Assembly (NCBI GenBank): GCA_023653025.1
Contig: JAMNXS010000023.1
Span: 1 to 37,883, forward strand
DNA: 37,883 nt
Direction: 5' to 3'
Source: Burkholderiaceae bacterium
GTDB lineage: Bacteria; Pseudomonadota; Gammaproteobacteria; Burkholderiales; Burkholderiaceae_D
Shown here: positions 6,042 through 37,733 of the stretch, piece by piece
How the letters are laid out: every line of letters starts with the position of its first letter
Position numbering within the stretch: the stretch's first letter is position 1
The notes under the pieces: model-generated
What the model saw: only the letters and a program-made list of their open reading frames with translations
Told to the model about the DNA's origin: nothing
Databases searched by the model: none
Made by a program: the position numbers and the translations under genes

Positions 6042-6150
6042 GTCGAGGACACCCCCACGGGTCGGCATAGCGATGCACACGACCGCTGACACTGCCCCGA
6101 CCTCGCCTTCCCGGAAGGCTCATGCCGCTGCGCCCTCCCGGAGCTCCACC

Positions 6151-8325: not shown

Positions 8326-8367
8326 GCCAGCGATTTTCCCTGCCTTGCAAAAAGCCTCGGTGCCTGC

Positions 8368-9735: not shown

Positions 9736-9741
9736 TGTACG

Positions 9742-10298
<557 letters not shown>

Positions 10299-10302
<4 letters not shown>

Positions 10303-11204: not shown

Positions 11205-11276
11205 GGAAGGCTTTGGGAAAGGGCAGGAGCGTGATTTTAGCTGATGGCGGGGGTGGGTAATGCGGCGGATGGATGC

Positions 11277-11364
11277 GGCGGATTTCGCCTGCGGCTCTAT
11301 CCGCCCTACGATTCGTAGCATCCCGCAGTCCGTAGGGCGGATAGAGCCGCAGGCGAAATCCGCC
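11277..11364. repeat. Perfect 34-bp inverted repeat with 20-base loop (REP-like)
   Basis: The arm at 11277-11310 (begins GGCGGATTTCGCC, ends CCCTACG) is the exact reverse complement of the arm at 11331-11364. All 34 positions pair. The loop is 11311-11330. GTAGGGCGGAT...ATCCGCC palindromes resemble the dispersed REP-type elements common in proteobacterial intergenic regions. The RNA would form a very stable hairpin. There is no run of T after either arm, so it is not a classical terminator. Confidence 0.9.
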
Positions 11365-11412
11365 ATGCCACGCCATGCCACGCCACGCCATTCCATTCCA
11401 TTCCCTGGAACG

Positions 11413-11441
11413 AAAAAGGCCAGTCGATGCGACTGGCCTTT
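11413..11441 (-). terminator. Intrinsic terminator of aceA
   Basis: A perfect 12-bp stem (11415-11426 paired with 11430-11441) with a 3-base loop has GGCCAGTCG as its core. On the minus strand it ends in a run of five T (11417-11413). It lies about 87 bases after the aceA stop. On the plus strand only three T follow, so it acts mainly on aceA. Confidence 0.88.
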
Positions 11442-11527
11442 CCCTTGCGAGGCTCGCTCCGTGTCGGAGATGCCCCGTTGGCTGCTTCGGACAGATGTCT
11501 CCCCTGCCCTTTCCGAATGACGCTAGC

Positions 11528-12823
<1,296 letters not shown>

Positions 12824-12873
12824 GGTCTTCCCTCCGAGAGTGAGCGTCACAAAAAAAGAAATTCGATGAGAAG

Positions 12874-12902
12874 ATAGTAGGCCGATTTTTGCGAGGCAAC
12901 AA
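12874..12902 (-). promoter_or_regulatory. aceA promoter
   Basis: On the minus strand TTGTTG (12902-12897) and TACTAT (12879-12874) are separated by exactly 17 bases, about 50 bases before the aceA ATG. The -35 box lies directly beside the GTCTTATATAAGAC palindrome, which suggests that a regulator bound there controls it. Assigned by eye. Confidence 0.55.
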
Positions 12903-12903
12903 G

Positions 12904-12917
12904 GTCTTATATAAGAC
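12904..12917. promoter_or_regulatory. Palindromic operator candidate upstream of aceA
   Basis: GTCTTATATAAGAC is a perfect 14-base palindrome one base upstream of the aceA -35 element. Palindromes of this form are typical targets of GntR-family regulators of central carbon metabolism, but naming the regulator would be inference. The position suits either blocking or contacting RNA polymerase. Confidence 0.55.
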
Positions 12918-13049
12918 AGAGGAGATAAATTTATTTGTTCAAAATCATAGGCTTAATGATTTGATTTTGCGATACGAAAAGCAATTTCTCTCAGCGAAAG
13001 ACAGGACTGCTGCCCTGCGATGGCAATTTTTTGTATTATGAAACGAAGA

Positions 13050-13064
13050 TTTCGCAATGCGAAA
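13050..13064. promoter_or_regulatory. Inverted repeat upstream of aceA, second copy at 12965-12979
   Basis: TTTCGCAATGCGAAA has 7-base arms around one central base. A related site, TTTTGCGATACGAAA at 12965-12979, matches 12 of 15 positions. Two similar dyads in one promoter region suggest a second regulator of aceA; TTTGC/GCAAA dyads recall sites of short-chain acyl-CoA-responsive XRE regulators, but this is inference. Confidence 0.35.
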
Positions 13065-13097
13065 ACGAGACGGCCAGTCCAGTCGCTGCCGAACGCA

Positions 13098-13592
13098 TCA
13101 GGCGAGCTTCGTGCGCGACACCAGCATGCCGTCCTCGTCTGCGACTACCCAGTCGCCCGGGCGCACGCTGACGCCGGCGATGTCGACCACCAGATCCCGC
13201 TCGCCAACGCCCTTGCGGATGCTGCGGCGCGGATGGGTCGCCAGAGCGCGGATGCCGATCTCGCACTGCTTCAGCTCCGCGCTGTCGCGCACGCAGCCGT
13301 AGACGACGATGCCGGCCCAGCCGTTCTTCTGCGCGAGCGCGCCGAGATTGCCGCCGACCAGCGCGCAGCGCAGGCTGCCGCCGCCATCGACGACCAGCAC
13401 GCTGCCTTCGCCCGGCGTCTCGAGCGCGGCACGCACCAGTACGTTGTCCTCGAAGACTTTCAGCGTGCGCGCGGTGCCTGCGAAGCGGGCGTGCTTGCCG
13501 AAGTCGCGGAAGACGGACGGAAGGACGTGCAGGCTGCCGTCGGCGAGTTTGTCTTCATTTGCGTCGCACAGGTCGCAGGTGGCGAAGGTCAT
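13098..13592 (-). CDS. rraA: RraA-family protein (HMG/CHA aldolase type)
   Basis: The 164-residue protein belongs to the RraA family. Members are either inhibitors of RNase E or 4-hydroxy-4-methyl-2-oxoglutarate/oxaloacetate aldolases. It starts [12 protein letters not shown] at ATG 13592, with CAGGAG upstream. [20 protein letters not shown] and VVYGCVRDS carry the G-x-L and R-D residues that bind substrate and metal in the aldolases, and [13 protein letters not shown] is conserved. Proximity to aceA fits a metabolic role, but the sequence does not settle which activity it has. Confidence 0.9.
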
Positions 13593-13646
13593 GCGGGGTC
13601 TCCTGATGGGGCAGGAATGAGAGGGAATGGTCGGCAATGGGCGGGC

Positions 13647-16226
<2,580 letters not shown>

Positions 16227-20154: not shown

Positions 20155-20513
20155 CGTTGGGCGATCCAGGTTGAGGCGTCGAATTATACGGGGGCAAGAC
20201 TTACCCATCGGAAAAAGCGGTGACCGCACATGATGGACAGATGAGTTTTTTGCATTAAGTGTGGCTAATTTGGCATGTCGATTTGCTCACATTCCCGACG
20301 CAATTAATCTCCGTTTGTCAATCCCACGAAATAGGTAGTTTGCAAAGTTTTGACGAGGTTCTTGCGCAACAACCGGCTTCAAACCGGCTCTAGCAAGCGC
20401 TTCGCTCCCAAATCAGCGACTTCCGACCCGCCCCCTCCGGGGGTTCGGGCCTTCAACGGATGACCCTGGTCCTGAGACCTCACAGCAACCTACCCGACAG
20501 AAGGAGCGTTCGA
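20155..20513. other. Intergenic stretch between thrC and the sigma factor gene
   Basis: A 359-base gap with no supported gene, at the junction of core genome and T3SS island. It is clearly more AT-rich in its first two thirds than the flanks. It holds the thrC TATAAT, a direct repeat of ACCGGCTTCAA/ACCGGCT (20372-20391), an AAGCGCTT palindrome near 20395-20402 and a GC-rich hairpin candidate (20425-20449, arms CCCCC/GGGGG). No convincing promoter for the sigma gene and no hrp box was seen. Confidence 0.6.
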
Positions 20514-21275
20514 ATGAATGCCATTCACAGCGATACAGCGGAGTGCGAAGCGGCCCATCTGTTCGGCGAATACCCATTCGACCCGGACCACGACTCCGGC
20601 ACGACATCGGCCGACGTCGAAACCATCGAACTCGAAGAAAGCGCCGATTCCGAGGACACGGAAAGCGACGCGGCGCAGCAGCCGTCGGGGTACGCCATGC
20701 CGACCCCGAACACGCCGGTGGCCTTCGACCCGGGCCCAGCCCCGGCCGAACTGGACCAGGAGATGCTGTTCCGACAACTGATCGCCCAGCACCAGCGCCG
20801 GCTGTATCGCTTCGTGATCAAGTACATCGATCATCCGGACGACGCCGCCGACATCACGCAGCAGGCGTTCGTAGAGGCCGCGCGGACGATTGCGAGCTTC
20901 CGCGGCGACTCCAAACTCTCGACCTGGCTGTTTGGCATTGCAATGAACATGGTCCGCAATTATCTCAGCCGCGCGCCGCATCGTGTCCATCGGTTTGAAA
21001 CCGACGAGAGCCTCGTCACCATCGCGTCCAGCGAGCCCGACCCCAGCGACTGCCTGATCCAGAAAGAATTGCTGATCATGGCCGAGCGCGCCTTCGGCGA
21101 CCTGCCGATCGAGATGAGCGAAGTGCTCGGACTGGTTGCAATCGACGAAATCTCCTACCAGGACGCCGCCGACATCCTGTCGATACCGCTGGGCACCGTG
21201 CGCAGCCGCGTATCCCGTGCACGCGCCGTGATGCGGGCACAGTTTGAACAAGCCGGGGTCAAGCTGCAATTCTGA
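20514..21275 (+). CDS. ECF-type sigma factor with acidic N-terminal extension, likely T3SS regulator
   Basis: From ATG 20514 (AAGGAG seven bases upstream) this is a 253-residue sigma-70-family protein. Region 2 spans about 85-153, with DDAADITQQAFVEAART and STWLFGIAMNMVRNYLSR. Region 4 covers about 190-240 and has the helix-turn-helix ISYQDAADILSIPLGTVRSRVSRAR. There is no region 1.1 or 3, so it is an ECF sigma. The first 80 residues are an acidic, Glu/Asp-rich, low-complexity extension that is unusual. Position at the island edge recalls HrpL and Bordetella BtrS, and the two hrp boxes at 35.9 kb are its natural candidate targets (inference). It is convergent with the 335-aa gene, 15 bases away. 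Confidence 0.88.
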   Translation: MNAIHSDTAECEAAHLFGEYPFDPDHDSGTTSADVETIELEESADSEDTESDAAQQPSGYAMPTPNTPVAFDPGPAPAELDQEMLFRQLIAQHQRRLYRFVIKYIDHPDDAADITQQAFVEAARTIASFRGDSKLSTWLFGIAMNMVRNYLSRAPHRVHRFETDESLVTIASSEPDPSDCLIQKELLIMAERAFGDLPIEMSEVLGLVAIDEISYQDAADILSIPLGTVRSRVSRARAVMRAQFEQAGVKLQF

Positions 21276-21290
21276 ATCCGCGCCGACGAT

Positions 21291-22298
21291 TCAAAGGGAC
21301 CGCACCGCCACCGAAACGGGAGTGTCGTTCCTGCGCTTCTCGCTGTCCCGGGCCTGGCTCGGGACAGTCGCGTTGACGGGATCGATGCAGACAGGCGAAC
21401 CGGCGGGCGCGCCAGTGGTGGCCGGCAATCCGTCTTCCTCATCGCTCCCCTCGCCCGCAGGCTTCTTCGACGGCGCCCCATCCGTACGTTCCAACCGATG
21501 TTTGCGGGACTGCTGCAGGCGCACGGCCTCGCTGCCGGTTTGCGCGGCCGCCGTGATGGCCGGCATCGCCCCCACAACGGACCCGGCACCAGGCGACAGC
21601 ATCAAGCCGATGTCTTGCCGAATGCCATCGATGATGAGTACTAACCGCTGGCCGGCATCGCCGGGCGTTCTACTCGCCTCCAGATAGCCTTGCGCAAACT
21701 CGAGCGACCCTGCCATCGCCTCTAGATCCTCCCGGGAATCCGCGTCGAACGACGAACGCAATCGAAGCACCGACTCGCGCAAGGCATCAAGCCGCCGTTC
21801 AAGTTCTGCGGACGAACTCTGTATCCGCCACCCGGGCAATGCGTCGACCAGGTGCTCGACCAGAAGTTTCGGACGATTGTCCGGGTGTCGCGTCGCGTTG
21901 TCTGCGACCGATGCCGGCTGGTCATGGATATCCCGCTGCGCTGGCTGCTCTGCGGTCGGCTCGACCGGCCTGCGGCCGGCGACCTGCGCTGCTGCCGACG
22001 GCCGGGCCGCCATCGGTTCGGCTTGCGCCGGCCGTCGTCCCGCTCGCCTCGCCGTCGTCTCGGTGGCAGGCTCGCGGCGCAGCCTATCGGCCGACTCGTG
22101 CTGCCGTTGTGCGACCTCGGCCATTACCGCAGCGCGCTCAGCCTGCACGAGTTGTTCGTGCATCGCCGTTCTGTTGCGCGACTGCGCGGACAGCTGCGCT
22201 GCGGTCAACCGACGCGGGCGAGCACGTGAATCCTCGTCATCCGATGCGGCGGACACCATACGGCCCGCGCCGACCCCGTAAGGATTGATGAAAGTCAT
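21291..22298 (-). CDS. Unrecognised Ala/Arg-rich protein, last gene of the T3SS operon
   Basis: The family is not recognised. From ATG 22298 (MTFINPYGVGAGRM) it has 335 residues. It is hydrophilic, with no signal peptide or membrane helix. Residues 25-125 are rich in Ala, Arg, Gln and Glu and partly repetitive, suggesting disorder or coiled coil. The middle (about 135-240) looks like a compact helical domain (LLVEHLVDALPGWR, AELERRLDALRESVLRLRSSF, GQRLVLIIDGIRQDIGLML). The tail is again low-complexity. Its ATG overlaps the stop of the fusion gene by four bases. It could be a secreted substrate or a cytoplasmic accessory factor; the sequence does not decide. Confidence 0.7.
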   Translation of the reverse strand: MTFINPYGVGAGRMVSAASDDEDSRARPRRLTAAQLSAQSRNRTAMHEQLVQAERAAVMAEVAQRQHESADRLRREPATETTARRAGRRPAQAEPMAARPSAAAQVAGRRPVEPTAEQPAQRDIHDQPASVADNATRHPDNRPKLLVEHLVDALPGWRIQSSSAELERRLDALRESVLRLRSSFDADSREDLEAMAGSLEFAQGYLEASRTPGDAGQRLVLIIDGIRQDIGLMLSPGAGSVVGAMPAITAAAQTGSEAVRLQQSRKHRLERTDGAPSKKPAGEGSDEEDGLPATTGAPAGSPVCIDPVNATVPSQARDSEKRRNDTPVSVAVRSL

Positions 22299-24469
22299 CC
22301 CTGTCCCCCATGGACCTCGCACTTGCGCAAATCGACGAACGTCGATGGATCGAACTCCATCGGCAGGTTTTCGCGCCGGTAGTAGTCGCGCAATTCCATC
22401 GCCGGATCAACCTCGCCGGCAGCCGCATCGACCAGGGCGAAGAAAATCCGGTCCTGATCCGGTGCACAGGCTCGGATGGACAGCTCGACGAAGCCCAAGC
22501 GCCTCAAGGCCCGTATCGAACGGTGGTTGTCCTTGTAGGCAGAGGTCAGCATCACCGGCACACCGACCTCGGCGGCTCGCCGGCAGGCCAGCCGGCCGGC
22601 TGCCGTAGCGAACCCGAGACCCTGAAAATCGACCCCCGTCCAGAAACAGAAAAAGGCGGCCTGCCCGGATACGGCCAGATTGATGAAGCCCACGAAGCCC
22701 CAGTCGGCATGCATGACGGCGTAGTTCACCCGGCCAGCATCCGATTGCTGCCCTGCCATCCACTGGCGGACGGCTTCGGGGCTGGACATCGCCGGCAACC
22801 CGGTCATGACGGCGATTTGCGGATCCCGATACTGGTGACTCAGCGCCTCGGCATGGCTGTCATCGAGCGGCTCCAGCCCGAGGGGCAAGTCGGGATGGCG
22901 CAATTCGACCCGCCATCGCCGGTCACGGTCGGCCAGGCGAGCGATCAGGCGCCGCCGGATTTCATTTGCCGGCGCATGCCCTGTCTCGAGCGCGATGGCT
23001 CGCTCGACCAGCGCCACGCCGGTGGCAAGACTGCCCGTGCGCGCCTCGCACCACGCGAGGTTGGCAAGATCGCCGGGGTTGTCCGCGCGCCGCAGGGAGT
23101 CGGTGAGCACGCGGCGGGCCAGTCCCCAGTGTCCGCTGTGCATGGCGGCCTGCGCTAGCAGAGGGGCGAGCCTGTCGCCGGCCGGAAAGCACTGCTGGTG
23201 CTGCCAGACCTGCTCGAGCGCCTGTTGCCATTGACGACGGTCGGCGCCCTGCGTGCGCGCCAGTTCCTTGATGATGCCCTGCGCCGCGGCCATGAATACG
23301 CCGGGATCGAAACGCGATAATTGCAGCAGGTTCAAGCGCGCCTCCAGCCCCACGCCGGGCCCCATGGAGCGCGCCACCTCGGACAGCTGCGCGCGCGACG
23401 ACATCAGGGCAGGATCGACGCAAGCGGCGACCGTATCGAGGCAGCGAACACTGGCAACCTGCCCCAGCAACATGGCCTGCAACACGCGCCGGCCCTGCAG
23501 ATCGACCTCGACGGTCAAGCCGCCGGCATGGCCGGCCCAGCGCCCGAGCAACTGAAAATTTACAGGCAGGCGACCGGATTGACGAAAGCCGGCACTGACC
23601 TCAGTGAACGAGCTCAGCCGCAGCGCGAGGTCGCTGGTGCATCCCGGCGCAAGCGACAGGACGAGCAAGCCGCTCCCGGCCGCTTCATGTGCGGCAGACA
23701 AAAAGCGAAACGCTCCGGTCGGGTAGGCGACAGGGGCGCTGTTGAACTCGGTCCGATAACGCTCGATCAGCGGGACCAGCGACGGATCCCACGCCGACTC
23801 GTCGACGGGCTGCCAGAGCGCATCCTCGCGGCCGGCCTCGGGGGCGGCGAGCAGCCGGAGGTCGGCCCGCAGCAGTTTGCCGTAATGCATGGCGTAGAGC
23901 TCCTGGGGCAACTGGCTCCACGCATCGTGCGCCATCACTACCACGGGATTGACGGGTCGATAAGGTTGACAGGCGTTGGCGGGTCCGGCATCCGGGCCGG
24001 AGATCTGCAAGGCTGCCTGATCGCCCGTCCCCTGCCAGCGGATGTGCGATCCTGGCACGTCGCCGGAATCGGCAACGACGGCGTCCGCTGCCTGACCGGC
24101 TGCATCCTCGCCGTAGGCCGGCAAATAGCGAAGCTCGCCGTGCTGGCTGCTGCCCAGCCGGCGCTCGATTGATGCAAGCAACAGTGCCGATGCGCCCGCC
24201 CGGCCCGGGCACAAGTCGACGATATCGAGGCCTTGGTGCGGGTCAATCAGGCCGCGCCGTCGGCAATCCCGCCAGAAGCAGGCAATCATCGCCGCATACT
24301 GGGCGAGCATGGCCGGCCCTGTTTCTGCCGGGGCGAGCCGGACGAGATGGCTCCCCCGCCGGGCCGAGGGCACCGCGGGTGGCGCCGGCTGCAGGAGCAT
24401 ACGTATCTGCGCGGAATGGACTTGGGCTGTCATGATGCTATCCGTCGTTCGAGGATCAAGCTTGCTCAC
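22295..24469 (-). CDS. Fusion of SAM-methyltransferase-like, TPR-like and GNAT acetyltransferase domains
   Basis: A 724-residue protein from GTG 24469, which overlaps the sctC stop (GTGA); ATG 24433 is the alternative. Residues 55-330 resemble a methyltransferase fold of the MidA-like type: LDIVDLCPGRAG at 81-92, VVVMAHDAWSQLPQELY near 176-192 and RLPVNFQLLGRWAGHAGG near 300-317. In the first motif Cys replaces the usual glycine-rich start, so activity is uncertain. Residues 400-510 are a TPR-like helical region. Residues 520-680 are a GNAT domain with the acetyl-CoA loop QGLGFA (616-621) and NHRSIRALRRLGF (648-660). It is co-transcribed with the secretin gene; its role is unknown. Confidence 0.8.
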   Translation of the reverse strand: MSKLDPRTTDSIMTAQVHSAQIRMLLQPAPPAVPSARRGSHLVRLAPAETGPAMLAQYAAMIACFWRDCRRRGLIDPHQGLDIVDLCPGRAGASALLLASIERRLGSSQHGELRYLPAYGEDAAGQAADAVVADSGDVPGSHIRWQGTGDQAALQISGPDAGPANACQPYRPVNPVVVMAHDAWSQLPQELYAMHYGKLLRADLRLLAAPEAGREDALWQPVDESAWDPSLVPLIERYRTEFNSAPVAYPTGAFRFLSAAHEAAGSGLLVLSLAPGCTSDLALRLSSFTEVSAGFRQSGRLPVNFQLLGRWAGHAGGLTVEVDLQGRRVLQAMLLGQVASVRCLDTVAACVDPALMSSRAQLSEVARSMGPGVGLEARLNLLQLSRFDPGVFMAAAQGIIKELARTQGADRRQWQQALEQVWQHQQCFPAGDRLAPLLAQAAMHSGHWGLARRVLTDSLRRADNPGDLANLAWCEARTGSLATGVALVERAIALETGHAPANEIRRRLIARLADRDRRWRVELRHPDLPLGLEPLDDSHAEALSHQYRDPQIAVMTGLPAMSSPEAVRQWMAGQQSDAGRVNYAVMHADWGFVGFINLAVSGQAAFFCFWTGVDFQGLGFATAAGRLACRRAAEVGVPVMLTSAYKDNHRSIRALRRLGFVELSIRACAPDQDRIFFALVDAAAGEVDPAMELRDYYRRENLPMEFDPSTFVDLRKCEVHGGQG

Positions 24470-26160
24470 TGAGTGTTTAACGGAACTCCGGCCACCGGGT
24501 TCAAAATCTTGGGCGTGATGAGAAACAGCCTCTCCCGTTTCTCTACCCGTGTCGACTTCTTCTTGAAGAACAAGCCCAGCAGAGGGACATTGCCGAGCGC
24601 CGGAACCTGATCTACTTGACGAATGTCGGACTCGGCATTGAATCCCCCGATCAGCAGGCTCTCGCGCTCGTTCATTACGGCCTGCGTTCCTATCGTGCTG
24701 CGCCTGACTCGCGGCAGCGTCTGGGCATTGACATCCTGGATTGCTCCGTCTTCGATATCGACGATCAGTTGTACTGATGACCCGCCGGGGCCGTCGATAA
24801 TGTGCGGCGTGACTTTCAGCGTCGTACCCACGGAGATCGGAACGACGCTGGCTACCCGCTCCCCGACAGATTGCACATAAAAGGTTTCGGACAGATCGAT
24901 CAGAGCGCCGAGGTTATCGACTGTCAATACCGAGGGTCGCGATACCACCCGGGCACTACCCTTGCCTTCCAGCAGGCGTACACGTGACATCAGGAAGTTG
25001 CCTGCATTCGGAATGACCGTCGTGGGACTGACGTCGCGCCCGAAAATGATGGTGCCCGTTACGTTGTCCGGTGGCGCGGCCGGCCGGCCGAAACCACCGG
25101 CGACATTACCGGCACGAGCGCCCCAATCGATGCCCAGTTCGGCCAGATTGTTCGAGTTGACGTCGACGATCACGGCCTCGATCTCGATCAGGCGGGTGGG
25201 AACGTCGAGAAGCTTGAGCAGATCTTCGTAGATGGGCATGTGCTGCGGGATGTCCTTGATGATTACGGCATTCAGCCGCGAATCCGCCTGAATCACGGGG
25301 CGCAGCGGCGGCGTCTGCCGCTGCAGACCGGCCGCCGGCGCCCCGGCCTGCCCGGGCGCCGATGCCGGTGCGGCGCTCTCGCTCGAGGCCGGGTTGGCCG
25401 AGACCTCGGCCACGGGCTGGGCAGCGCGTAATGGCGCAGCGATCATCGACAATTGCTGAAAATTACTGGCCGTAGTGCCACCTGCGCCTCCTTGACCGGT
25501 AATGAGGGCGCGCAAGATCGAGGCCACGCCGGCGGTTGTAATTTGCTGGTCGCGGTACGAGATCACCCGATCATTGACCTGCGCATGTATCAGCCGGAAA
25601 ACGCGGATCTGGTGCTGCGGCTGGGGCAGCGGCAAGGTGGCTACAGCCCAGGCGACGAGATCGACATAGGCAGGCGGCCCCGACACCATGGCGACGCCCC
25701 TGTCGGCCAGTTCGCCCCAGCCAAATTTGGGATCGACGACGCCCAAGTCCGTCAGCGCCTTGCGGAAATCCGGCAGGGAAATGCCGTTCGGCGTGATCGA
25801 GCGCGTCGCATACTCGGAATTCTTGCTGACGTACAGCGTGCCGGCGTAGTAAAACCATTGCAAGCCGTAGGTTGCCGACAGCTGGTTCAGGAACTCCGTC
25901 GGGCTGGACATCGTGAACTTTCCGCTGACCCGGTCCGATCCGGACAGCACGGCGGTCGAGGCCTGCAGCTGGAGACCGAAGTTTCTCGCAAATGACCCGA
26001 GTACCTCGGTCAGGTTCTGCTTGTCTGCAATGAAGGTGAACGACACCTCGGGCCACGGTACCGGCGCCGCCGCTGCCGGCGCGAGCGGGCCGCCGCAGAG
26101 GACCGCTACCAACGCTAGCGTCCTTGCCCATTGGCGGCAGATCGTGACGGGATGCCTCAT
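24466..26160 (-). CDS. sctC: T3SS outer-membrane secretin SctC
   Basis: The secretin forms the outer-membrane ring through which the needle passes. From ATG 26160 it has 564 residues with a signal peptide (basic MRHPVTICRQWAR, hydrophobic LALVAVL, cleavage after APAAAA). N0/N1 domains cover about 35-170, the N3 region is near 180-330 with a Pro/Ala-rich insert (280-310), and the secretin core (340-555) ends with VPALGNVPLLGLFFKKKS and RLFLITPKIL. The start overlaps the chaperone stop (ATGA), which excludes the longer open frame. The location after sctU and a small chaperone gene matches the Bordetella bscU-bscW-bscC order. Confidence 0.95.
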   Translation of the reverse strand: MRHPVTICRQWARTLALVAVLCGGPLAPAAAAPVPWPEVSFTFIADKQNLTEVLGSFARNFGLQLQASTAVLSGSDRVSGKFTMSSPTEFLNQLSATYGLQWFYYAGTLYVSKNSEYATRSITPNGISLPDFRKALTDLGVVDPKFGWGELADRGVAMVSGPPAYVDLVAWAVATLPLPQPQHQIRVFRLIHAQVNDRVISYRDQQITTAGVASILRALITGQGGAGGTTASNFQQLSMIAAPLRAAQPVAEVSANPASSESAAPASAPGQAGAPAAGLQRQTPPLRPVIQADSRLNAVIIKDIPQHMPIYEDLLKLLDVPTRLIEIEAVIVDVNSNNLAELGIDWGARAGNVAGGFGRPAAPPDNVTGTIIFGRDVSPTTVIPNAGNFLMSRVRLLEGKGSARVVSRPSVLTVDNLGALIDLSETFYVQSVGERVASVVPISVGTTLKVTPHIIDGPGGSSVQLIVDIEDGAIQDVNAQTLPRVRRSTIGTQAVMNERESLLIGGFNAESDIRQVDQVPALGNVPLLGLFFKKKSTRVEKRERLFLITPKILNPVAGVPLNTQ

Positions 26161-26561
26161 CAGAGCACCTTCATCAGCAGACGCCATTCGCCGATGGCAT
26201 GAACGAAATTTTCGAGGCTGCGCTCGAACTCGTCCGGAGTGGCGTCCGCAGGACATCTCTGCTGCAGCAGAACATGACCACCGTCAGGCGACACCACGGG
26301 GACGTCGGCATGGCGCTGCATCCTCAACCACGAGATCGTTGCGCACTCGCGCAGGATCGCCTCGCGATCAGCGGGAACGACAGGCAGGTCTAGAAGCCGC
26401 GACTCCATGACAAGATCGCCGTGCGGCGCCGGTCGACAATACACACGGTAGTCCCTGTCCAGGGTAAGCACGACCGCACCGTCCACACGTTGCGCGCCAG
26501 GCCTGAGCTGATAACGATCGAGAAAGCCGGACAGCGCTGTCGGGTAACGGTCCATTTTCAT
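26160..26561 (-). CDS. Small T3SS chaperone (CesT/BscW-like position)
   Basis: A 133-residue acidic protein (MKMDRYPTALSGFLDRYQLRPG...) with the alternating strand-helix look of class I T3SS chaperones. It has an N-terminal helix, a central sheet (VVLTLDRDYRVYCRPAPHGDLVMESRL) and a C-terminal helix (FERSLENFVHAIGEWRLLM). The start overlaps the sctU stop and the end overlaps the sctC start. By position it corresponds to Bordetella BscW. Whether it serves the secretin or a secreted substrate is not visible. Confidence 0.7.
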   Translation of the reverse strand: MKMDRYPTALSGFLDRYQLRPGAQRVDGAVVLTLDRDYRVYCRPAPHGDLVMESRLLDLPVVPADREAILRECATISWLRMQRHADVPVVSPDGGHVLLQQRCPADATPDEFERSLENFVHAIGEWRLLMKVL

Positions 26562-30394: not shown

Positions 30395-30921
30395 CTTCCG
30401 TTGCCGGCCTCGGCAACAATCGAGGATGACACTTCGTCGATGATCCGTATCGTGAACCGGCAGGCGATGCGGGAATCCAGTGCCCGAACGAGTTCAAGCA
30501 GCTTGTCCGATATCCAGACGCGTACCTCCGAATCGCCCGTCCTCAAATCGAACACCAGCAACCGGCCGATCTCATGAACTTCGAGGGACGCGTCTTTCAA
30601 CACATCAGGCGACAGACGAAGTCGAACACTTTCTCGGTGCTCGTTCTGGTGAGATGAATGCGCACGATGCATCACCTCGACCAGCCACTGCAATCTTTGG
30701 TGATGGTCAGGCGGTCTTGGCGCAGACGGGTAATCGGCCTGGGCATCGTGTGCCGTCGGAATGTCCACTGCCGGTCCGCAGGGGCGAGCGCCCAGAAGCG
30801 CACGGAGCCGGAGGCCGTCGGCCGAGCGATGCTCGGGACAGACGGTGCGAGCTGTCGTTGGGGCCTCGGCCACCGCAAGCGACAGAAAGCCGAGATCGGC
30901 ATCGATACGCCTGCTGCTCAT
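30352..30921 (-). CDS. sctP: Probable T3SS needle-length/specificity protein SctP (short)
   Basis: Called mainly from its place between sctO and sctQ. The 189-residue protein has a variable, Pro/His-rich N-terminal part (1-75) and a more regular C-terminal domain (about 95-170: RESVRLRLSPDVLKDASLEVHEIGRLLVFDL and VRVWISDKLLELVRAL). This is consistent with the substrate-switch domain of SctP/YscP and FliK. It is much shorter than YscP, so the ruler part is short or absent. Its ATG overlaps the sctO stop. Confidence 0.65.
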   Translation of the reverse strand: MSSRRIDADLGFLSLAVAEAPTTARTVCPEHRSADGLRLRALLGARPCGPAVDIPTAHDAQADYPSAPRPPDHHQRLQWLVEVMHRAHSSHQNEHRESVRLRLSPDVLKDASLEVHEIGRLLVFDLRTGDSEVRVWISDKLLELVRALDSRIACRFTIRIIDEVSSSIVAEAGNGRCDHSWHRASLCES

Positions 30922-31451
30922 GCCTGCCCCACCGAATACAGTTCACCGGATACGTCGGAGTCTTCCCCCGCTGCCCGGGAGTCGAATGCAAACCGAATTT
31001 CGGCAGCCTCCTCCAACTCGCTCTCCTCGCGGCGTGCCAGCTCAAAGTCTCGCTCTTCCTGAACGGCGCGCATCATTTCGCCGAACTTCTCCCGCATGCG
31101 CACCGCCACCCGGTGCTGTTCACGCGCTTCGCGCTCGGAATCGACGGCTGCATCCAGCGTCTGGAGCGCAGCATCAACTTCCGCGGAAAGTTCGTCGGCA
31201 CGCTCTTTGGCGAGTTGGACATCGATCTGCACGCTGTTGATATCCCGTTGCAGGACAATCCGGCTGCAGAGATCATCGAACATGGCCTTTTCCTTTTTTT
31301 TGCTCTCGTCAAGAAAATCCCGAAGATTTTGTCGCGCGCGTTGGACTGCGACTTCTGCTTCCCTGACCCGGCTGCGCGCAATGGCCAGCTGACGCTCCGC
31401 CTTTTGCTCTCTGAAAATCTTGATTCGAAGTAAATCCGCTAGTACGTCCAT
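30918..31451 (-). CDS. sctO: T3SS ATPase stalk protein SctO
   Basis: SctO (YscO/FliJ-like) is the central coiled-coil stalk of the ATPase. The 177-residue protein is almost entirely charged helix, with heptad-like stretches between 15 and 145 (QKAERQLAIARSRVREAEVAV, REAREQHRVAVRMREKFGEMM). The N-terminus MDVLADLLRIKIFREQKAE is typical. It follows sctN after an unusually long gap of 215 bases. Confidence 0.87.
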   Translation of the reverse strand: MDVLADLLRIKIFREQKAERQLAIARSRVREAEVAVQRARQNLRDFLDESKKKEKAMFDDLCSRIVLQRDINSVQIDVQLAKERADELSAEVDAALQTLDAAVDSEREAREQHRVAVRMREKFGEMMRAVQEERDFELARREESELEEAAEIRFAFDSRAAGEDSDVSGELYSVGQA

Positions 31452-31666
31452 GTCGGCCTTTCATCGAACCACTAAGGTATCGGTACAAACCAGGGAACCC
31501 AAGCCAAATAGTTGTCAAATACATACATCTTGTCCGTATGTAACGGTCACAAGGGGCTGGTTCCTGACACAGCCCAAGCAAACTGAGGCGAAGGAAGCGA
31601 CAGAACGTTGTGCGGTCACCACACAGCCCTGTGCGAGAAACGAAGAAAGCGGGGGAATTGCGCCGA
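31452..31666. other. Gap between sctN and sctO
   Basis: 215 bases without a supported gene, in the middle of a run that otherwise overlaps or nearly touches. It contains a GGGCTG/CAGCCC inverted pair (about 31554-31575), a GTGcGGTcACCaCAC dyad at 31610-31624 and CATAC...GTATG at about 31522-31540. No hrp box on the minus strand was found. It may carry an RNA structure or a decayed gene. Confidence 0.5.
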
Positions 31667-32998
31667 TCAGCTCACGACATCGTGCAGTTGTTCGAGCATG
31701 TCGTCGAAACCGATCCGCTCGTCGGTGCGCTGTTTGAGAAAGCTGCGTATCTCGTCAATGCGCGCAATGGCCTCATCGGCAAGCGTATCCGCTCCGCGCT
31801 TGTATTCGCCGATCTTGACCAGCAGTTCGACCTCCTGGTACTTCGCCATCAACTCGCGAAATCTTCCGGCAGCTTGCTTGTGATCCGCATCGACGACCAT
31901 GTTCATGACGCGGGAGACGGAGGCGAGAATATCGATTGCCGGGTAATGGTTTGCTGCAGCAAGCCGCCGAGACAAAATGATGTGGCCATCCAGAATCGAT
32001 CGGGTTTCGTCCGCAATGGGCTCGGTCATATCGTCACCCTCGACGAGTACCGTATACAGAGCCGTAATCGAACCCTTGTGTCCCATGCCTACGCGCTCCA
32101 TCAGGCGCGGGAGGGTTGCAAATACGCTCGGCGGAAAACCCCGACGCGTTGGTGGCTCACCGGCTGCCAGGCCGATTTCCCGCTGCGCACGGGCAAATCG
32201 AGTCACGGAATCCATTAGGAACAGTACCCGCTTCCCCTGGTCTCGGAAGTACTCAGCAATTGCCGTGGCAACGTAGGCCGCTTTCGAACGCTCCATGGAC
32301 GACTTGTCCGAGGTGGCGCACACGATGACGGCCTTTTTCCGACCCTTTTCGCCAAGCTCGTGCTCAAGAAATTCCCTGACCTCGCGGCCGCGCTCCCCGA
32401 TCAGGGCAACCACCGTGATATCGACATCCGCCCCCTTGACAAGCATCGCCATTAAAGTCGATTTCCCCCCGCCCGCCGCAGCAAAGACGCCCATTCTCTG
32501 CCCCTCGCCACAGGTCAGCAATCCGTCCAGCGCCCGAACGCCGAGTGAAAGAGGATGCTGGATGATGCGTCGCTTGAGCGGATCGGGAGCGCCAGTCAGT
32601 ACCGGATAGTAGCGGCTGACCCGCAACGGGCCGTGAGTTGTCGTGTCGATCGGCTCTCCCATGCCGTCGAGCACGCGACCCAGCAAGCCATTTCCAACCG
32701 GGACCATATGCACCTGGCCTGTGGGAATGACTTCGGTATCCGATGAAATTCCCTGCATATCTCCCATCGGCATCAGCAGAGCGGATCCCTGCGAAAAGCC
32801 GACGACCTCTGCCTTCATATCGGTATCGATACCGGGGGTATGCAGTACGCATATTTCACCGATTTTTACCGAGGGGATGACGGCGCGGAGAATCGTACCC
32901 GTTACCTGGACGACCTTGCCGCGAATACTGGCAACCTGAGCCTGCGCAAGCGCGGATTGCAGCATGTCGGTGATGTAGTTGAAATGATGAGGCTTCAT
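31667..32998 (-). CDS. sctN: T3SS ATPase SctN
   Basis: SctN is the F1-like hexameric ATPase that strips chaperones and unfolds substrates. The 443-residue protein has Walker A AAGGGKST near 174-181, the GERGREV loop at 201-207 and Walker B VLFLMDS at 258-264. [31 protein letters not shown] is the family signature. The C-terminal domain ends [15 protein letters not shown]. Length and motifs are normal. Genes for SctL, K, J and I, often upstream of sctN, are replaced here by two unrecognised genes. Confidence 0.98.
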
Positions 32999-33028
32999 CG
33001 TGGGTGATTGGCGGCTCGGTAACCGTCT

Positions 33029-34255
33029 TCAAATGCCCGATGCAACCCGGTTCTCGGATTCTGTCATGGCTTTTAACGCGTTAGATGCCGTATCGAAAAA
33101 CAATGCAGCTTTTTGCATCAGCTCATTCAGATAAACCGACTGCTGGGAGCTTCTCTGCGTGAGCGAAACGACCGTATCGCCAAATTGTGATATCACGGTC
33201 TGCCGCTGTTCATCGGAGAGACCCAAAATGACCTTTTTATTTATATCGATCATTACCTCGACGAGATCCGCGGGCTTTGATGGGTTGTCGTTGTTTGCGT
33301 AGTAATACTTGTATTCGACTGCCCCGGACGAAACCGGACTCCTGATCAGCGAACCTTTCGGTGCCTGAATCGGACCAAATGTCGAACCGGCGGTCTGGAT
33401 AACCAGAGTAGTATCAACAATCGGAAAGACAGCGAAATTACTAAAGGACTGATCAGATGAGGACACGGTACGAAACGCAACAGCGTCGAACGGAGCCGTA
33501 GCTCGCGCGCTTTCAGACAGCTTGGCGACGAGGGCATCGGTTCGAGCTATTGCCAGCTGCGAGAAATAATCGGATGAGGACCCGAAAGTCCCCAGCACCG
33601 TATCAAGGAAAAACATTTCCTCAATTGACTTTATCCTCACCTGCTCCGTTCTGCCCGAACTGTCGGCAACCATCATGTAAATAGCGGTGTCGTTTTCAAC
33701 AGAAAAAGGTTTTTCAAGTTGGACAGTCCCATCGGGAGCGCGTGGCACGCCGTCTGGCGGAACAACAGGCAAGGGGTAAATATCGTTCAATGCAATCCAT
33801 GAGTCGGTGCTGCTGCCTTCCTTCCTGTAGGTGACTTTGACATCATTGAAATCAAGCAGTGGAGAACTGGTACCGATCCATGACGCAAAGTTGGTCTTTA
33901 TCCAGTTCGCGAGACCCACCAGCCGATCGACATCTGCCAACCCAAGGGAACTGATTGACTTTCCAATGAGATCGGGAATATCCACCGACTCAGGGGGCCT
34001 GATCTTGACGCCATTGATCCGCAAGGCGCCAAAACCCGAGTTGGAAAGTACGCCAATAGCATCGCGGACCGACTCCACCTCATCAAGCAAATTAACCATT
34101 GCATCTTTTTGAATTCTCAACTGATAACCCACGTAGGATCCCCTCTCTGCCAGCGTTCCTACCGCCGCAATCTTGACCGAATTCAAGTCTGGATCTCGCA
34201 ATTCCCATGTCGCGTTAGTTCTATAATCTGTCGTAATGGTGTAAGTGTTCGGCAT
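33029..34255 (-). CDS. Unrecognised T3SS-linked protein, possible needle-tip or translocon-type substrate
   Basis: The family is not recognised. The 408-residue protein starts MPNTYTITTDYRTNATWEL with AGGGG seven bases upstream. It has no signal peptide or membrane helix and is rich in Ser, Thr, Asn and Asp, as secreted T3SS substrates often are. The centre looks beta-rich. The last 70 residues form a strong helix (DEQRQTVISQFGDTVVSL, then QSVYLNELMQKAALFFDTAS, then NALKAMTES). This pattern resembles the C-terminal helix of tip or filament proteins such as SipD, EspA and SseB. That is inference from pattern only. The gene lies directly before sctN. Confidence 0.6.
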   Translation of the reverse strand: MPNTYTITTDYRTNATWELRDPDLNSVKIAAVGTLAERGSYVGYQLRIQKDAMVNLLDEVESVRDAIGVLSNSGFGALRINGVKIRPPESVDIPDLIGKSISSLGLADVDRLVGLANWIKTNFASWIGTSSPLLDFNDVKVTYRKEGSSTDSWIALNDIYPLPVVPPDGVPRAPDGTVQLEKPFSVENDTAIYMMVADSSGRTEQVRIKSIEEMFFLDTVLGTFGSSSDYFSQLAIARTDALVAKLSESARATAPFDAVAFRTVSSSDQSFSNFAVFPIVDTTLVIQTAGSTFGPIQAPKGSLIRSPVSSGAVEYKYYYANNDNPSKPADLVEVMIDINKKVILGLSDEQRQTVISQFGDTVVSLTQRSSQQSVYLNELMQKAALFFDTASNALKAMTESENRVASGI

Positions 34256-34377
34256 GATTAACCCCTGCTATTTCACGAAAACCTGCAACTGCATGTCTGA
34301 TAGGTACCGGCAAGTAGAGTTGTCAGAGCAGAGAAATTCAAGCCATCCCGCATAGCGGCCAACTTGCACATAAGGAG

Positions 34378-35394
34378 CTATGTGCCACCTCTGACACGAC
34401 TTCTGTTGCGATCACTTGCGGCTTCTGCCGCACTGCCGGATCCATCGATCAGGGGTACTCTGTAGGGATCGGCTGCACCCGGAGTCAGATTAGTTGCGGT
34501 GTTCGAGATACCGCTCGTACTATCGACTTGCAGGGCTCGAAACTCTCGTTCACGTCTGATTATTCGTTCTCGCCGCAAAAATTCTTCACGCAGTGCAAGC
34601 TGTGCTTCTCGCACCTGTGTTGTCGATTGATTGCTTTCCTGCTGGAACTGGATCATTTGAGAGCTGGTTTTTGCCACTTCGCCGATCGACTTCGCAGCGG
34701 TCACAAGTTCCGCTTGGAGAAGTTCCGATGTTTTATCGACCACGGCATTGATGGAGCCGATTGTTGAAGATAGTGCCGACGCCGTGGGACGGCGGTTGGC
34801 ATAAGCAGAAAAGACCGTGAACCGAACGGTATCGATGACCTTGTTTTGACTGTCTTTAACCACGGTTTCTCGAATTTCGCTGCCGGGAAAGCTCGAAATT
34901 CCGCCGGACTGAAGCCTCGAAATAATGGCAACTTGTGCTTCATCCATCCAGGCGAAAGCTTTTGACAGTGTCTTGCCCTTGTCATCGAATCGTTCGACCA
35001 GCACGGGAGTTCTGATCGGCGCATCTATCATGGCACCAGAGTCGATTATTTCGCTGTACAGCGCGTTTGCTTCGGCAAGCGTTGCTCCCAAATTAGGACC
35101 ATCGTCAGAAAACATTTTTCGCAGTGCCGTCTCGCTTTTTTGCACACTCGCCAGGGAGTCGAGAGTGACAGGCGTGCTTGTTTGAGATAGTCGTTCGACA
35201 AGCCGGGCCGTCAGCGACTTCAGCAACTCATATTGTTTTATGACGAATGACAATGCGGAATCAAGGCGTGCCCTCGCCACTTGAGTTCGAAACGCCATGT
35301 CTGCATCGGAGACAAAGCTGGTCAGCGACACTGCCTCTTCGGCCGAGGTAGGAACGAAGCTCGATGCTGATATCCCGGAAATGGGTGACGACAT
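34378..35394 (-). CDS. Unrecognised T3SS-linked protein with coiled-coil C-terminal half
   Basis: The family is not recognised. The 338-residue protein starts MSSPISGISASSFVPTSAEE with a strong GGAGGG ribosome site. The Ser/Thr-rich, uncharged first 25 residues look like a T3SS secretion signal. Residues 35-120 are helical. After a central segment, residues 205-290 are a long helix with coiled-coil character (SINAVVDKTSELLQAEL, then MIQFQQESNQSTTQV, then ALREEFLRRERIIRREREF). It has no membrane helix, so it is not a SctE-type hydrophobic translocator. It is followed after 122 bases by the 408-aa gene, and the two are probably co-regulated. Confidence 0.6.
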   Translation of the reverse strand: MSSPISGISASSFVPTSAEEAVSLTSFVSDADMAFRTQVARARLDSALSFVIKQYELLKSLTARLVERLSQTSTPVTLDSLASVQKSETALRKMFSDDGPNLGATLAEANALYSEIIDSGAMIDAPIRTPVLVERFDDKGKTLSKAFAWMDEAQVAIISRLQSGGISSFPGSEIRETVVKDSQNKVIDTVRFTVFSAYANRRPTASALSSTIGSINAVVDKTSELLQAELVTAAKSIGEVAKTSSQMIQFQQESNQSTTQVREAQLALREEFLRRERIIRREREFRALQVDSTSGISNTATNLTPGAADPYRVPLIDGSGSAAEAASDRNRSRVRGGT

Positions 35395-35494
35395 GATTTT
35401 CCCTCCGATCGCGCACGCTGCAAAGCCTATCGCGTCAGGCCGCTCGCGGCGGTGCGCCTACGTCCAGTACGAGCCGACCTGCAGGAACAGGCGC

Positions 35495-35794
35495 TCAAAT
35501 GATTGTCTTTGGTCGAAACCGGCGTTGAGGTCGATTAGGCGTCTGCGTGGTGTGCAGCGCCCGCTCTGTTTCCTCCTGAAGCTCACGAACAGCTCGCTGA
35601 ACTTGACGCTCTACTGCCGCCCTTTCGGCGGGAGAAAGGCGCTTTTGCATGTATTTTTCCAACTCGCCGGGCTCAAACCCATACTGCCTGTTGAATTCCT
35701 CTGCACGACGAAGAATGGCATCAACTTTGGCTACTAATCGACGCCCTTCGATGATCACTTGCTCGACTTTGTCCAAAGCTGGCCCCCAAATCAT
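35495..35794 (-). CDS. Small helical protein, first gene of the hrp-box-driven minus-strand operon
   Basis: Not recognised. The frame is open from ATG 35869 (124 residues), but an exact hrp box lies inside those first codons. Translation of the hrp-driven message should therefore start at a later ATG. ATG 35794 (MIWGPALDKVEQVIIEGRR) gives 99 residues. The protein is charged and almost wholly helical (VDAILRRAEEFNRQYG, KRLSPAERAAVERQVQRAVRELQEETERAL). It might be a chaperone or export cofactor; size and position fit, but nothing diagnostic is visible. Confidence 0.6.
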   Translation of the reverse strand: MIWGPALDKVEQVIIEGRRLVAKVDAILRRAEEFNRQYGFEPGELEKYMQKRLSPAERAAVERQVQRAVRELQEETERALHTTQTPNRPQRRFRPKTII

Positions 35795-35835
35795 TACTTC
35801 AGCATTCGTGGATGACGATTTTTTGTCGCCGACCT

Positions 35836-35863
35836 TCTGTGGCATGCGGGATTTGCCGGTTCC
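35836..35863 (-). promoter_or_regulatory. hrp-box promoter for the minus-strand T3SS operon
   Basis: On the minus strand GGAACC (35863-35858), 15 bases, then CCACAGA (35842-35836) is an exact match to the HrpL-type consensus GGAACC-N15/16-CCACNNA. It points into the run that starts with the 99-aa protein and leads to sctN. Transcription would begin near 35830, downstream of the long-frame ATG at 35869. Confidence 0.78.
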
Positions 35864-35882
35864 CTCCATTCAGAATGTTGCA

Positions 35883-35910
35883 GGAACCCATCGATTCTTC
35901 CAGTCACCAA
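35883..35910 (+). promoter_or_regulatory. hrp-box promoter for sctW-tyeA-sycN
   Basis: GGAACC (35883-35888), 15 bases, then TCACCAA (35904-35910) matches the same consensus with one mismatch in the -10 part. It lies 46 bases before the sctW ATG and is back to back with the minus-strand box, 19 bases apart. Confidence 0.7.
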
Positions 35911-35956
35911 TCGGCTTCAGGCGCTTGCCGTCGCATAGGAATTTTCAGGAAAAGCC

Positions 35957-37045
35957 ATGGAGTCAAACACCGGAAGAATCAATCAATCAGGACAGACCAC
36001 CCGCCTTGGGCTCACTCAATCTGTAGCGAACGATGCCGGACGCCTCGACGGAACCAGCTTACGTATTCGCGCCAACGACGATGATGTTGACGAGATGATT
36101 CAGGCCGAGCAGATGGCACGGTCGGCAGGTCTGCTGAGCACACGAGAACACAAGACACTGGCGCAGTTCAAGCTCTCGACAAATAACGCGGCCTCTGATT
36201 TAGGACTGGCCCAGGCACGCAAATTTGAAAATACCTTCTCTGCTGGCAAGAAAATCGCGGCCACGGCACAGGAAATGCTGCGCTCTCTGATGGAGGGTCG
36301 ACCACTACCGAGGAATGGCAGCAGCCCTTCTGAAGTTGCTGACCGATTTGCATCACTTGCTCGACTGCGAGAAGCATTGGCCGGTGATGACGACACTTTT
36401 GTCGCTTTGATGTCAGCCCTGCCCAACGGAGCCTTAGACCTGAAGGCTTTGTCGCGACAACTGCAGGAAGCCGGCGATGACGAGCAGGCTATGCAGGGAC
36501 TTTTATCAGATATTCGCGGTGAAGCGAGCGAAGATGAGTTTTCCAAAGCGATGACCACAGCGCGCTTCGATCCACATGCCCTGAAAAAGCTGCTGCGAGA
36601 AACCCAATCTCTGCCCACAATCGACAAGCTGGCGCGGGAAGAGCTTGCCGAAAAAGTCCAAGATGAAATCGCAGAATTGCTGCGGCGAGATGAAAGCCAT
36701 GTCCGAGCAATGGACGCCGTGATCGAAAAGGCCGGGGGCGAAAGAGTGCAGGCAGCTGCCTTGAGTTATGACGAGCTGGTGCATTCGGGTTGGAAAAGCT
36801 TTCCCAGCATGCTCGAGATCCTCGTGGCTCGCCACCCACCGAAGGAGCTGTCGCAGCAAATCATGCCGCTGATGGAGCAGACCCTGGCTCATGAACTCGG
36901 ACGCGGCGCTGAGCAACGGTCGGTCGATAAAGCCAAGCTGGAAGCGCTGATGAATTGGCTTCAATGCTTCCGCATTGCAAGGGGATTATTTCTCAGTCTG
37001 GAAAAGCTGACCACCACAATGGGGCGCACATACGGTGTCAACTGA
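35957..37045 (+). CDS. sctW: T3SS gatekeeper SctW (YopN/HrpJ family)
   Basis: SctW holds back effectors until translocators have been exported. The 362-residue helical protein starts MESNTGRINQSGQTTRLGL, polar and secretion-signal-like, with AGGA six bases upstream. Residues 60-230 and 240-355 have the repeated helical hairpin look of YopN/MxiC/HrpJ (EMLRSLMEGRPLPRN..., LMSALPNG, LSYDELVHSGWKSFPSMLEILV). The call rests on this and on the tyeA and sycN genes that follow. Its stop overlaps tyeA by 11 bases. Confidence 0.82.
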   Translation: MESNTGRINQSGQTTRLGLTQSVANDAGRLDGTSLRIRANDDDVDEMIQAEQMARSAGLLSTREHKTLAQFKLSTNNAASDLGLAQARKFENTFSAGKKIAATAQEMLRSLMEGRPLPRNGSSPSEVADRFASLARLREALAGDDDTFVALMSALPNGALDLKALSRQLQEAGDDEQAMQGLLSDIRGEASEDEFSKAMTTARFDPHALKKLLRETQSLPTIDKLAREELAEKVQDEIAELLRRDESHVRAMDAVIEKAGGERVQAAALSYDELVHSGWKSFPSMLEILVARHPPKELSQQIMPLMEQTLAHELGRGAEQRSVDKAKLEALMNWLQCFRIARGLFLSLEKLTTTMGRTYGVN

Positions 37046-37340
37046 AGCCGAGAAACGATTCAACGAGCAAAATCTGCTACTGGCCTTGATTCGGCTTCTG
37101 GGTTCGGGCTGGGTCTCAGCCAGCCAATTCGATCGGATGGCACGTGACTTTGGCATACCGGACGGACCAGCAAAAATCAGTTTTTTCACGGGACTGTCGC
37201 AAATCCTGAGGGAATTTCCACATCGACTTTTCGAAGATGACCTTGCGCGTATCGCCTTACTGGAATCATTACAAAACGCGCTCGATGACGCAATCGCTCA
37301 AGAGGAGTCGGATCCCGAGAATGAGCCGACATCAAGTTAA
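37035..37340 (+). CDS. tyeA: TyeA-like T3SS gatekeeper partner
   Basis: TyeA binds the C-terminus of YopN/SctW to close the export gate. The 101-residue protein aligns by eye with Yersinia TyeA over most of its length: LIRLLGSGWVSASQFDRMARDFGIP against LVDKRWAGIHDIEHLANAF, then ISFFTGLSQILREFPHRLF against VRFYQDLKRMFRLFPLGVF, then an acidic end. It starts at GTG 37035, inside the end of sctW. Confidence 0.88.
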   Translation: MSTEAEKRFNEQNLLLALIRLLGSGWVSASQFDRMARDFGIPDGPAKISFFTGLSQILREFPHRLFEDDLARIALLESLQNALDDAIAQEESDPENEPTSS

Positions 37341-37358
37341 ATCGGGGATGCAATTTAT

Positions 37359-37733
37359 ATGGACTGGACCGATCAGATTGTCTCCGAATTTGGTGTCCAA
37401 ATCGGACTCCCGGGGCTGAAACTCGACAGCAGGCGCCGCGTTCGCCTTGATGGCGACGATGGCTACGGCATTGCCTTTCTGGATGCTGCCGACCCTCCGA
37501 TACCCGAGTTTGTCGTGGTGCTCGCGCGGACCAACAGCTACTTGAAGGCACTGCAGCTTGAACAGACTTTGCAGCGATGCCACTACGCCTCCCCTGCCCC
37601 TTGGCCGCTGCAGTTGGCCTGCTCTCCGTCGGAAACGAGGCTGGCAGTAAGAATTCCGCATCGTAGCCTTTCCCTCAGTTGCTTGAATCAGGCAATTTCA
37701 TTTCTTAAAAGGCTGGATGCAGAAGCTTTTTAG
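37359..37733 (+). CDS. sycN: SycN-like T3SS chaperone
   Basis: SycN with YscB is the chaperone of YopN in Yersinia. The 124-residue protein has the same opening (MDWTDQIVSEFGVQIGLPGL against MSWIEPIISHFCQDLGVP). It also matches in the middle (VVLARTNSYLKALQLEQTL) and near the end (RSLSLSCLNQAISFLKRL against RSLTLPLLHQAFEQLLRL). GGGGA is about ten bases upstream of ATG 37359. Its place after tyeA supports the call. Confidence 0.85.
   Translation: MDWTDQIVSEFGVQIGLPGLKLDSRRRVRLDGDDGYGIAFLDAADPPIPEFVVVLARTNSYLKALQLEQTLQRCHYASPAPWPLQLACSPSETRLAVRIPHRSLSLSCLNQAISFLKRLDAEAF

Follow-up and report, generated by a model that had tools for sequence, protein, structure and literature searches.

Conserved divergent putative ECF-type promoter boxes in a type III secretion island of a Burkholderiaceae bacterium, and a break point in the island's ECF sigma factor gene among its relatives

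The window analysed here is one whole contig, 37,883 bases long, of a 2.9 Mb draft genome (G000), and harbors a type III secretion system (T3SS) island (Table 1). At the left end of this island lies an ECF sigma factor gene encoding sigma2 and sigma4 domains, in agreement with the initial annotation, which had placed such a gene at 20.5 kb. Two divergent boxes, whose -35 elements are separated by 19 bases when read directly from the sequence, are located between the minus-strand 99 aa/338 aa/408 aa/sctN genes and the plus-strand sctW-tyeA-sycN genes, and both their coordinates and their placement among the gene calls are as that annotation had described. The third-position GC content ranges from 0.50 to 0.67 in the sctN-sycN T3SS genes (31667-37733), versus 0.86 to 0.87 in three long flanking genes (6073-16226). 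A 724 amino acid protein with a C-terminal GNAT acetyltransferase domain is encoded at 22295-24469, and similar proteins, some cut by contig ends, are found in eight relatives (G002, G005, G007, G009, G011, G015, G073 and G084). Neither sctD nor hom was found in the window's own genome. The scores of its two FHIPEP matches fall in line with those of FlhA-type matches in genomes lacking the T3SS, and sctV is therefore taken to be missing as well. The absence of these three genes probably represents a gap in the draft.

Table 1. Coordinates of the promoter boxes and genes of the T3SS island in the 37,883-base window; scores and ranks are those of a matrix trained on boxes of relatives
Feature	Position	Strand	Remarks
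ECF sigma factor gene	20460..21275	plus	Sigma70_r2, Sigma70_r4_2; left end of T3SS island
Tyr168 codon of ECF gene	20961..20963	plus	break point in 11 related genomes; whole in window
secretin sctC	24466..26256	minus	PF00263, PF03958
sctO (YscO)	30918..31451	minus	PF07321
box-like sequence facing box 3	31494..31521	plus	weaker; score 14.02, rank 4
ECF-type promoter box 3	31537..31564	minus	GGAACCAGCCCCTTGTGACCGTTACATA; sctN-sctO gap; score 20.6, rank 1
sctN, T3SS ATPase	31667..32998	minus	NF005391, above cut-off
408 aa protein	33029..34255	minus	no family match; two relatives have a similar protein
338 aa protein	34378..35394	minus	no Pfam match; similar protein in stretches of five relatives
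99 aa gene (124 aa from upstream ATG 35869)	35495..35794	minus	weak match to Btc22-family T3SS chaperone, E 5.8e-4, 20.3 of 100 bits, below cut-off
ECF-type promoter box 1	35836..35863	minus	GGAACC-N15-CCACAGA; score 15.94, rank 3
ECF-type promoter box 2	35883..35910	plus	GGAACC-N15-TCACCAA; score 18.88, rank 2
sctW gatekeeper	35957..37045	plus	named by its place ahead of tyeA; Pfam gave nothing above cut-off
tyeA	37035..37340	plus	follows sctW
sycN-like chaperone	37359..37733	plus	below curated cut-offs

Box 1 probably drives the 99 aa-338 aa-408 aa-sctN genes, with a transcription start expected a few bases past 35836, and box 2 probably drives sctW-tyeA-sycN. The longest minus-strand reading frame, of 124 codons, would place box 1 within coding sequence. 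In G002 and G007, every possible start of the homologue of the 99 aa protein lies beyond the box, and the conserved portion of the homologue lines up downstream of the window ATG at 35794, the start of the 99 aa form in the initial annotation; in G015, as in the window, the longer frame extends into the box. Position 35794 is the likely start of this gene. A third box, the best-scoring one in the window and overlooked in the initial annotation, occupies the gap between sctN and sctO, carries a TTAC -10 element and probably drives sctO and the genes after it. The earlier proposal that two boxes control both halves of the T3SS is supported as regards the divergent promoters, which are conserved, but two boxes do not cover both halves, given this third and better box. 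The weaker box-like sequence facing it may be a chance match. A box after sctN or before sctO is present in nine of the 12 genomes with an sctN at least 72% identical to that of the window (G000, G002, G010, G015, G036, G058, G084, G165 and G174) and absent from G007, G073 and G438.

The exact hrp pattern, GGAACC-N15..17-CCAC, is expected 0.18 times by chance in the window and is by itself weak evidence, and the case for the boxes stands on their conservation in relatives. Among 392 genomes of the family, sctN is matched at E 1e-170 or better in 14, and 12 of these, the window's own included, share at least 72% sctN identity. The divergent region, from sctW to the operon on the other strand, is readable in eight of the 12 (G000, G002, G007, G015, G058, G073, G084 and G174), all of which have a box on each strand, 18 to 77 bases apart. 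The contigs of G010 and G165 stop before this region, that of G036 stops ten bases past a single box, and G438 has one box and no partner. In G032 and G235, where sctN is 65-66% identical, the 19 kb read around this gene showed neither kind of box. The spacer between GGAAC and the -10 element is 16 bases in 16/16 boxes of the eight regions, and spacers of 11-15 and 17-22 bases occur in none, the pattern having first been defined with a spacer of 16. Over 12 sequences (188,564 bases), 34 sites and nine pairs were counted, versus a mean of 2.5 sites and no pairs in 60 rounds of simulation; eight of the pairs fall in the divergent region and one elsewhere in G007. A matrix built from the 14 boxes of seven relatives, with the window held out, returned the three boxes and the sequence facing box 3 as its four best sites in the window (Table 1), all others scoring 9.01 or lower. 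The score of box 1 is the lowest among all pair members, and none of the sites in 40 simulated windows reached it. Both the conservation among relatives and the held-out matrix bear out the reading of divergent ECF-type promoters with an ECF sigma factor gene in the same island. Boxes were also observed near sctV, as a second divergent pair upstream of this gene in G007 (L044 2355 and 2434), as pairs in G084 and G174, and singly in G002, G015 and G073.

All 14 relative boxes contain a GGAAC -35 element, with G as first base in 12 and T in two, and G at position 21. This fixed G is followed by T in 11, A in two and C in one, the next position is T in 11 and C in three, and AC and a closing A complete the element in 14/14. 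The -10 element of the clade consists of the fixed G and mostly TTACNNA, unlike the CCACNNA of the hrp box, as CCAC is found in none of the 14 relative boxes and in one of the three window boxes. HrpL, an ECF32 factor linked to the T3SS, is described in the accessible parts of the published accounts as firing several operons in P. syringae and Herbaspirillum (PMC8999054, PMC4149516, PMC3487950). The hrp consensus given there is GGAACC-N15-CCACTCAAT for Herbaspirillum (PMC3487950), whose hrpL is, in the same portion of the source, without a sigma-54 promoter, and GGAAC-N16-17-CCACNNA for P. syringae (PMC4149516). The window boxes resemble the hrp box, as outlined in these portions, in their GGAAC -35 element, 16-base spacing and occurrence before several operons. 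The window factor in turn resembles HrpL in its sigma2 and sigma4 ECF architecture and in the linkage of its gene to a T3SS cluster. The earlier description of the boxes as HrpL-type promoters fits the exact match of box 1, the -35 element and the spacing, but not the -10 element of the clade; the sigma factor groups apart from seven ECF factors of loci with CCAC boxes, in a tree that includes no authentic HrpL. On sequence grounds, the boxes are best described as conserved, divergent, putative ECF-type promoters of a variant HrpL type. A second parallel is BtrS of Bordetella, an ECF factor which, in the part of the report available, drives T3SS genes and has a secreted anti-sigma factor, BtrA (PMC10732220); the window likewise combines an ECF factor with a T3SS.

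Comparison with relatives suggests that the product of the ECF gene may start at the methionine at 20514. Ahead of sigma2 it carries about 80 additional N-terminal residues (20514-20745), a stretch that is acidic by eye and differs between species. An unassigned 343 aa gene at 21291-22322 faces the ECF gene and has a product 24-32% identical to those of two relatives; by position only, it is a candidate partner of the sigma factor with a BtrA-like anti-sigma role. Orthologs of the ECF factor at 66% identity or higher are present in nine of the 12 sctN genomes, the window's own included, while a G438 copy shares 48%. In eight of these ten the ECF gene shares a contig with T3SS genes. The nearest solved relatives of the factor are sigma-E and sigma-H. 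No box scoring 13 or higher precedes the ECF gene in the seven genomes of the genus with a whole copy. In a tree of ECF factors, which includes several long branches and no authentic HrpL, the window factor belongs to a clade of ten rows (99/98), apart from seven ECF factors of the same order that derive from five loci with CCAC boxes, defined by GGAAC-N16/17-CCACNNA (100/100). G116, with three TCAC boxes near T3SS genes, sits on the CCAC side of this tree (89/87), and the two ECF factors of G088, which has one CCAC box but, within the 20 kb read, none of the T3SS genes, fall outside the CCAC clade.

The initial annotation had further proposed a whole-genome scan with the hrp motif as a means of predicting the effector set, but the plain pattern performs near chance, with seven sites in the window's own genome versus 20 for the reversed pattern. 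When the exact consensus GGAAC-N15-GYYAC-NNA was counted against its reverse across 21 genomes, the own genome had six sites versus five, three of the six within 4.4 kb of the island. The excess is marked in G036 (50 versus 9), G084 (32 versus 7), G058 (21 versus 5), G007 (12 versus 3) and G010 (10 versus 1). Further counts are 27 versus 14 in G165, 25 versus 18 in G174 and 13 versus 6 in G002, while G438 (14 versus 12), G015 (9 versus 8) and G073 (7 versus 9) are near the control. The nine genomes without an sctN match gave 11 versus 7 (G003), 8 versus 6, 6 versus 4, 4 versus 5, 3 versus 7, 3 versus 5, 3 versus 3, 2 versus 7 and 0 versus 5. In a sample of 20 stretches of G036 holding 23 of its 50 sites, 20 sites have an open reading frame of at least 80 codons (ATG, GTG or TTG) starting within 150 bases, compared with 52% of random points, and two of the three misses are close to contig ends. 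The counts and this placement suggest that many genes stand behind such a box in some relatives, but few in the window's own genome.

We suggest, with a probability of roughly 80%, that the boxes serve as promoters for the island's own ECF factor, whose gene lies at its left end, and that one factor sets off at least three operons. With this factor bound, RNA polymerase would read GGAAC as the -35 element and (T/C)(T/C)ACNNA as the -10 element, the two spaced by 16 bases and the fixed G standing directly before the latter. By firing both ways from 35836-35910, and again before sctO, it would place at least three operons under one factor. The sequences themselves show where the boxes lie, how they are conserved and spaced, and that the ECF gene belongs to the same island; we infer that the island factor is the probable reader, in which direction each box acts, where transcription starts, and that there is an all-or-none single switch. 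A real difficulty for this reading, and one that lowers its odds, is posed by G058, a 98% complete genome with the box pair and a genome-wide excess of sites, in which no match to the factor was found beyond an RpoE-like one at 35%; G010 (75% complete) likewise has only an RpoE-like match at 35%. Also weighing against it are the near-control counts of the own genome, G015, G438 and G073, the count of 11 versus 7 in G003, which lacks sctN, the single box of G438, the lack of boxes around sctN in G032 and G235, the low score of box 1, and the lack of a box before the ECF gene itself.

GGAAC is a common -35 element among ECF promoters, and the boxes could as such be read by another sigma factor, for example an RpoE-like one, with the island factor serving some other function. 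The sigma-E and sigma-H affinities of the island factor and the case of G058 are in keeping with this. RpoE-like matches occur widely, however, whether or not a genome shows an excess of boxes, and the sites of the own genome cluster in the island, and we consider this explanation unlikely. Similarly improbable is a reading of the boxes as ordinary hrp boxes, with the ECF gene simply encoding an HrpL. The -35 element and spacing coincide with the Herbaspirillum (PMC3487950) and P. syringae (PMC4149516) consensus, as far as these are set out in the accessible sections, box 1 is an exact hrp match, and the type of -10 element does not follow the sigma factor tree cleanly, as G116 illustrates. 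Against this stand the lack of CCAC among the relative boxes, where T prevails at the second -10 position, the TTAC of box 3, and the separate clade formed by the ECF factors of the CCAC-box loci, a comparison without authentic HrpL among its rows. The factor therefore appears to work like HrpL and is best called HrpL-like. That the boxes are chance matches is hardly credible: the plain hrp pattern does occur near or below chance level in the genome, but position, orientation and spacing are kept in 8/8 readable regions and the held-out matrix recovers the boxes.

Orthologs of the ECF gene are present in 18 of the 21 genomes of the genus, several of these drafts being incomplete. The gene is whole in seven (G000, G002, G005, G007, G009, G011 and G015) and broken at Tyr168 in 11, so that in these related freshwater bacteria the sigma factor gene is the exact point at which most T3SS genes go missing. 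In eight genomes (G001, G003, G004, G006, G008, G016, G017 and G020) the frame runs on after Tyr168 into the last ~34 residues of SctV, and G018 and G019 bring the SctV fusions to ten (L108, L109, L111, L112, L113, L115, L117, L118, L143 and L144), all with an open frame. By Pfam, the G003 fusion comprises sigma region 2 and FHIPEP positions 624-656, the latter below the cut-off, and the same stretch is found in G008. In G018 and G019 one contig stops exactly at the Tyr168 codon and a second carries the SctV fusion, the paired contigs overlapping by exactly 114 (L114/L144) and 121 bases (L116/L143), respectively. Exact overlaps of this kind arise during assembly at branches of the graph, where there is more than one way onward, and a second continuation of the front part of the ECF gene therefore probably exists in both samples. 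In G013 (L110) the tail has no Pfam match and resembles, again from a Tyr codon, the tail of SctF in G015, a protein that itself scores 25.9 of the 29.4 bits needed for the needle family. Neither sctN (E 1e-170) nor sctW (E 1e-5) was detected in any of the 11 genomes with a broken ECF gene; sctN is present in four of the seven with a whole one (G000, G002, G007 and G015), and the contigs of the remaining three break off early. In G007 and G015, the ECF gene and sctV lie on one contig in the same direction, about 30 kb apart, between thrC and hom, which gives the fusions the appearance of deletions. Among the T3SS genes of G007 there is also a transposase (L044 7136-8113), presumably IS30-like.

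The two sides of the ECF-sctV join have only TA or TAT/TAC in common. Two pairs of sister genomes with broken genes differ mainly at silent sites, with 43 silent and six other changes in sigma2 and 12 and none in the SctV tail for G001/G008, and 34 and eight in sigma2 and 22 and one in the tail for G016/G019. The sctD gene (YscD domains), just downstream of sctV, is present in 15 of the 21 genomes, including ten of the 11 with a broken ECF gene, in part as fragments but with zero inner stops. These observations would be explained by recent losses, by persistence of the whole form in the population, or by use of the fusion protein. At Arg166, two codons ahead of the last ECF codon, 13 of the 18 genomes have AGA. 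This triplet accounts for 38 of 1580 Arg codons in thrC and clpB, and for 11 of 72 at the four remaining invariant Arg columns of sigma2, and its prevalence at Arg166 hints at a constraint there at the DNA level.

Whole and broken forms are scattered over both the thrC+clpB and the sigma2 trees, and close sisters differ in state (G015/G020 and G002/G017). On the thrC+clpB tree (17 rows; G004, with no clpB, was left out), the seven SctV-fused rows need six changes, all forced by well-supported branches, while the tree of the adjoining sigma2 DNA (18 rows) requires seven. A single inherited deletion without later regain was rejected on the former with the seven SctV-fused rows held together (dlnL 785, p-AU 0.0002), and likewise on the 234 bases of sigma2 up to the junction with all 11 broken rows (dlnL 149, p-AU 1.2e-10). 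An old deletion followed by repeated regain of the island is a possible history, since the trees show seven changes, as many as there are whole rows. Loss and regain cannot be told apart on these trees, and the number of separate deletions is accordingly uncertain, although the two different partners, SctV and SctF, would call for at least two events. G020 differs from its sister G015 by nine silent changes in 34 SctV codons and by four in 78 sigma2 codons, which looks like exchange of short stretches between species.

Several causes of the break were considered. An assembly artefact is unlikely, as the 11 broken genomes come from several projects. A large serine recombinase (PF07508) is present in only five of the 21 genomes and was rejected as a general cause. 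Homologous recombination between direct repeats was rejected as well, given that, in G002, G007, G011 and G015, the sequences up to 600 bases from the ECF site and from the sctV site share no stretch longer than ten bases, and none at the junction. We tentatively raise the possibility, with rather more doubt than conviction, that the ECF gene doubles as a recombination site. After a sequence-specific cut at Tyr168 (TA core), the ECF gene would be joined to one of the last Tyr codons of sctV or sctF, with the loss of about 30 kb of T3SS genes. Populations would then contain both the whole and the deleted form, and T3SS carriage would be a genetic switch rather than a fixed species trait. The open-access literature searched yielded nothing on point for T3SS loss by precise or site-specific deletion, nor for the T3SS of freshwater Oxalobacteraceae or of Noviherbaspirillum.

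The refined box predicts the T3SS operons of freshwater Oxalobacteraceae and yields dozens of candidate target genes in some relatives, and the differences among boxes suggest that T3SS sigma factors of one family have come to use different -10 elements. Should the cut prove site-specific, it would represent a new mechanism by which a population retains both T3SS-plus and T3SS-minus cells. Were the ECF gene indeed such a recombination site, the lineage would retain both injecting and non-injecting kinds.
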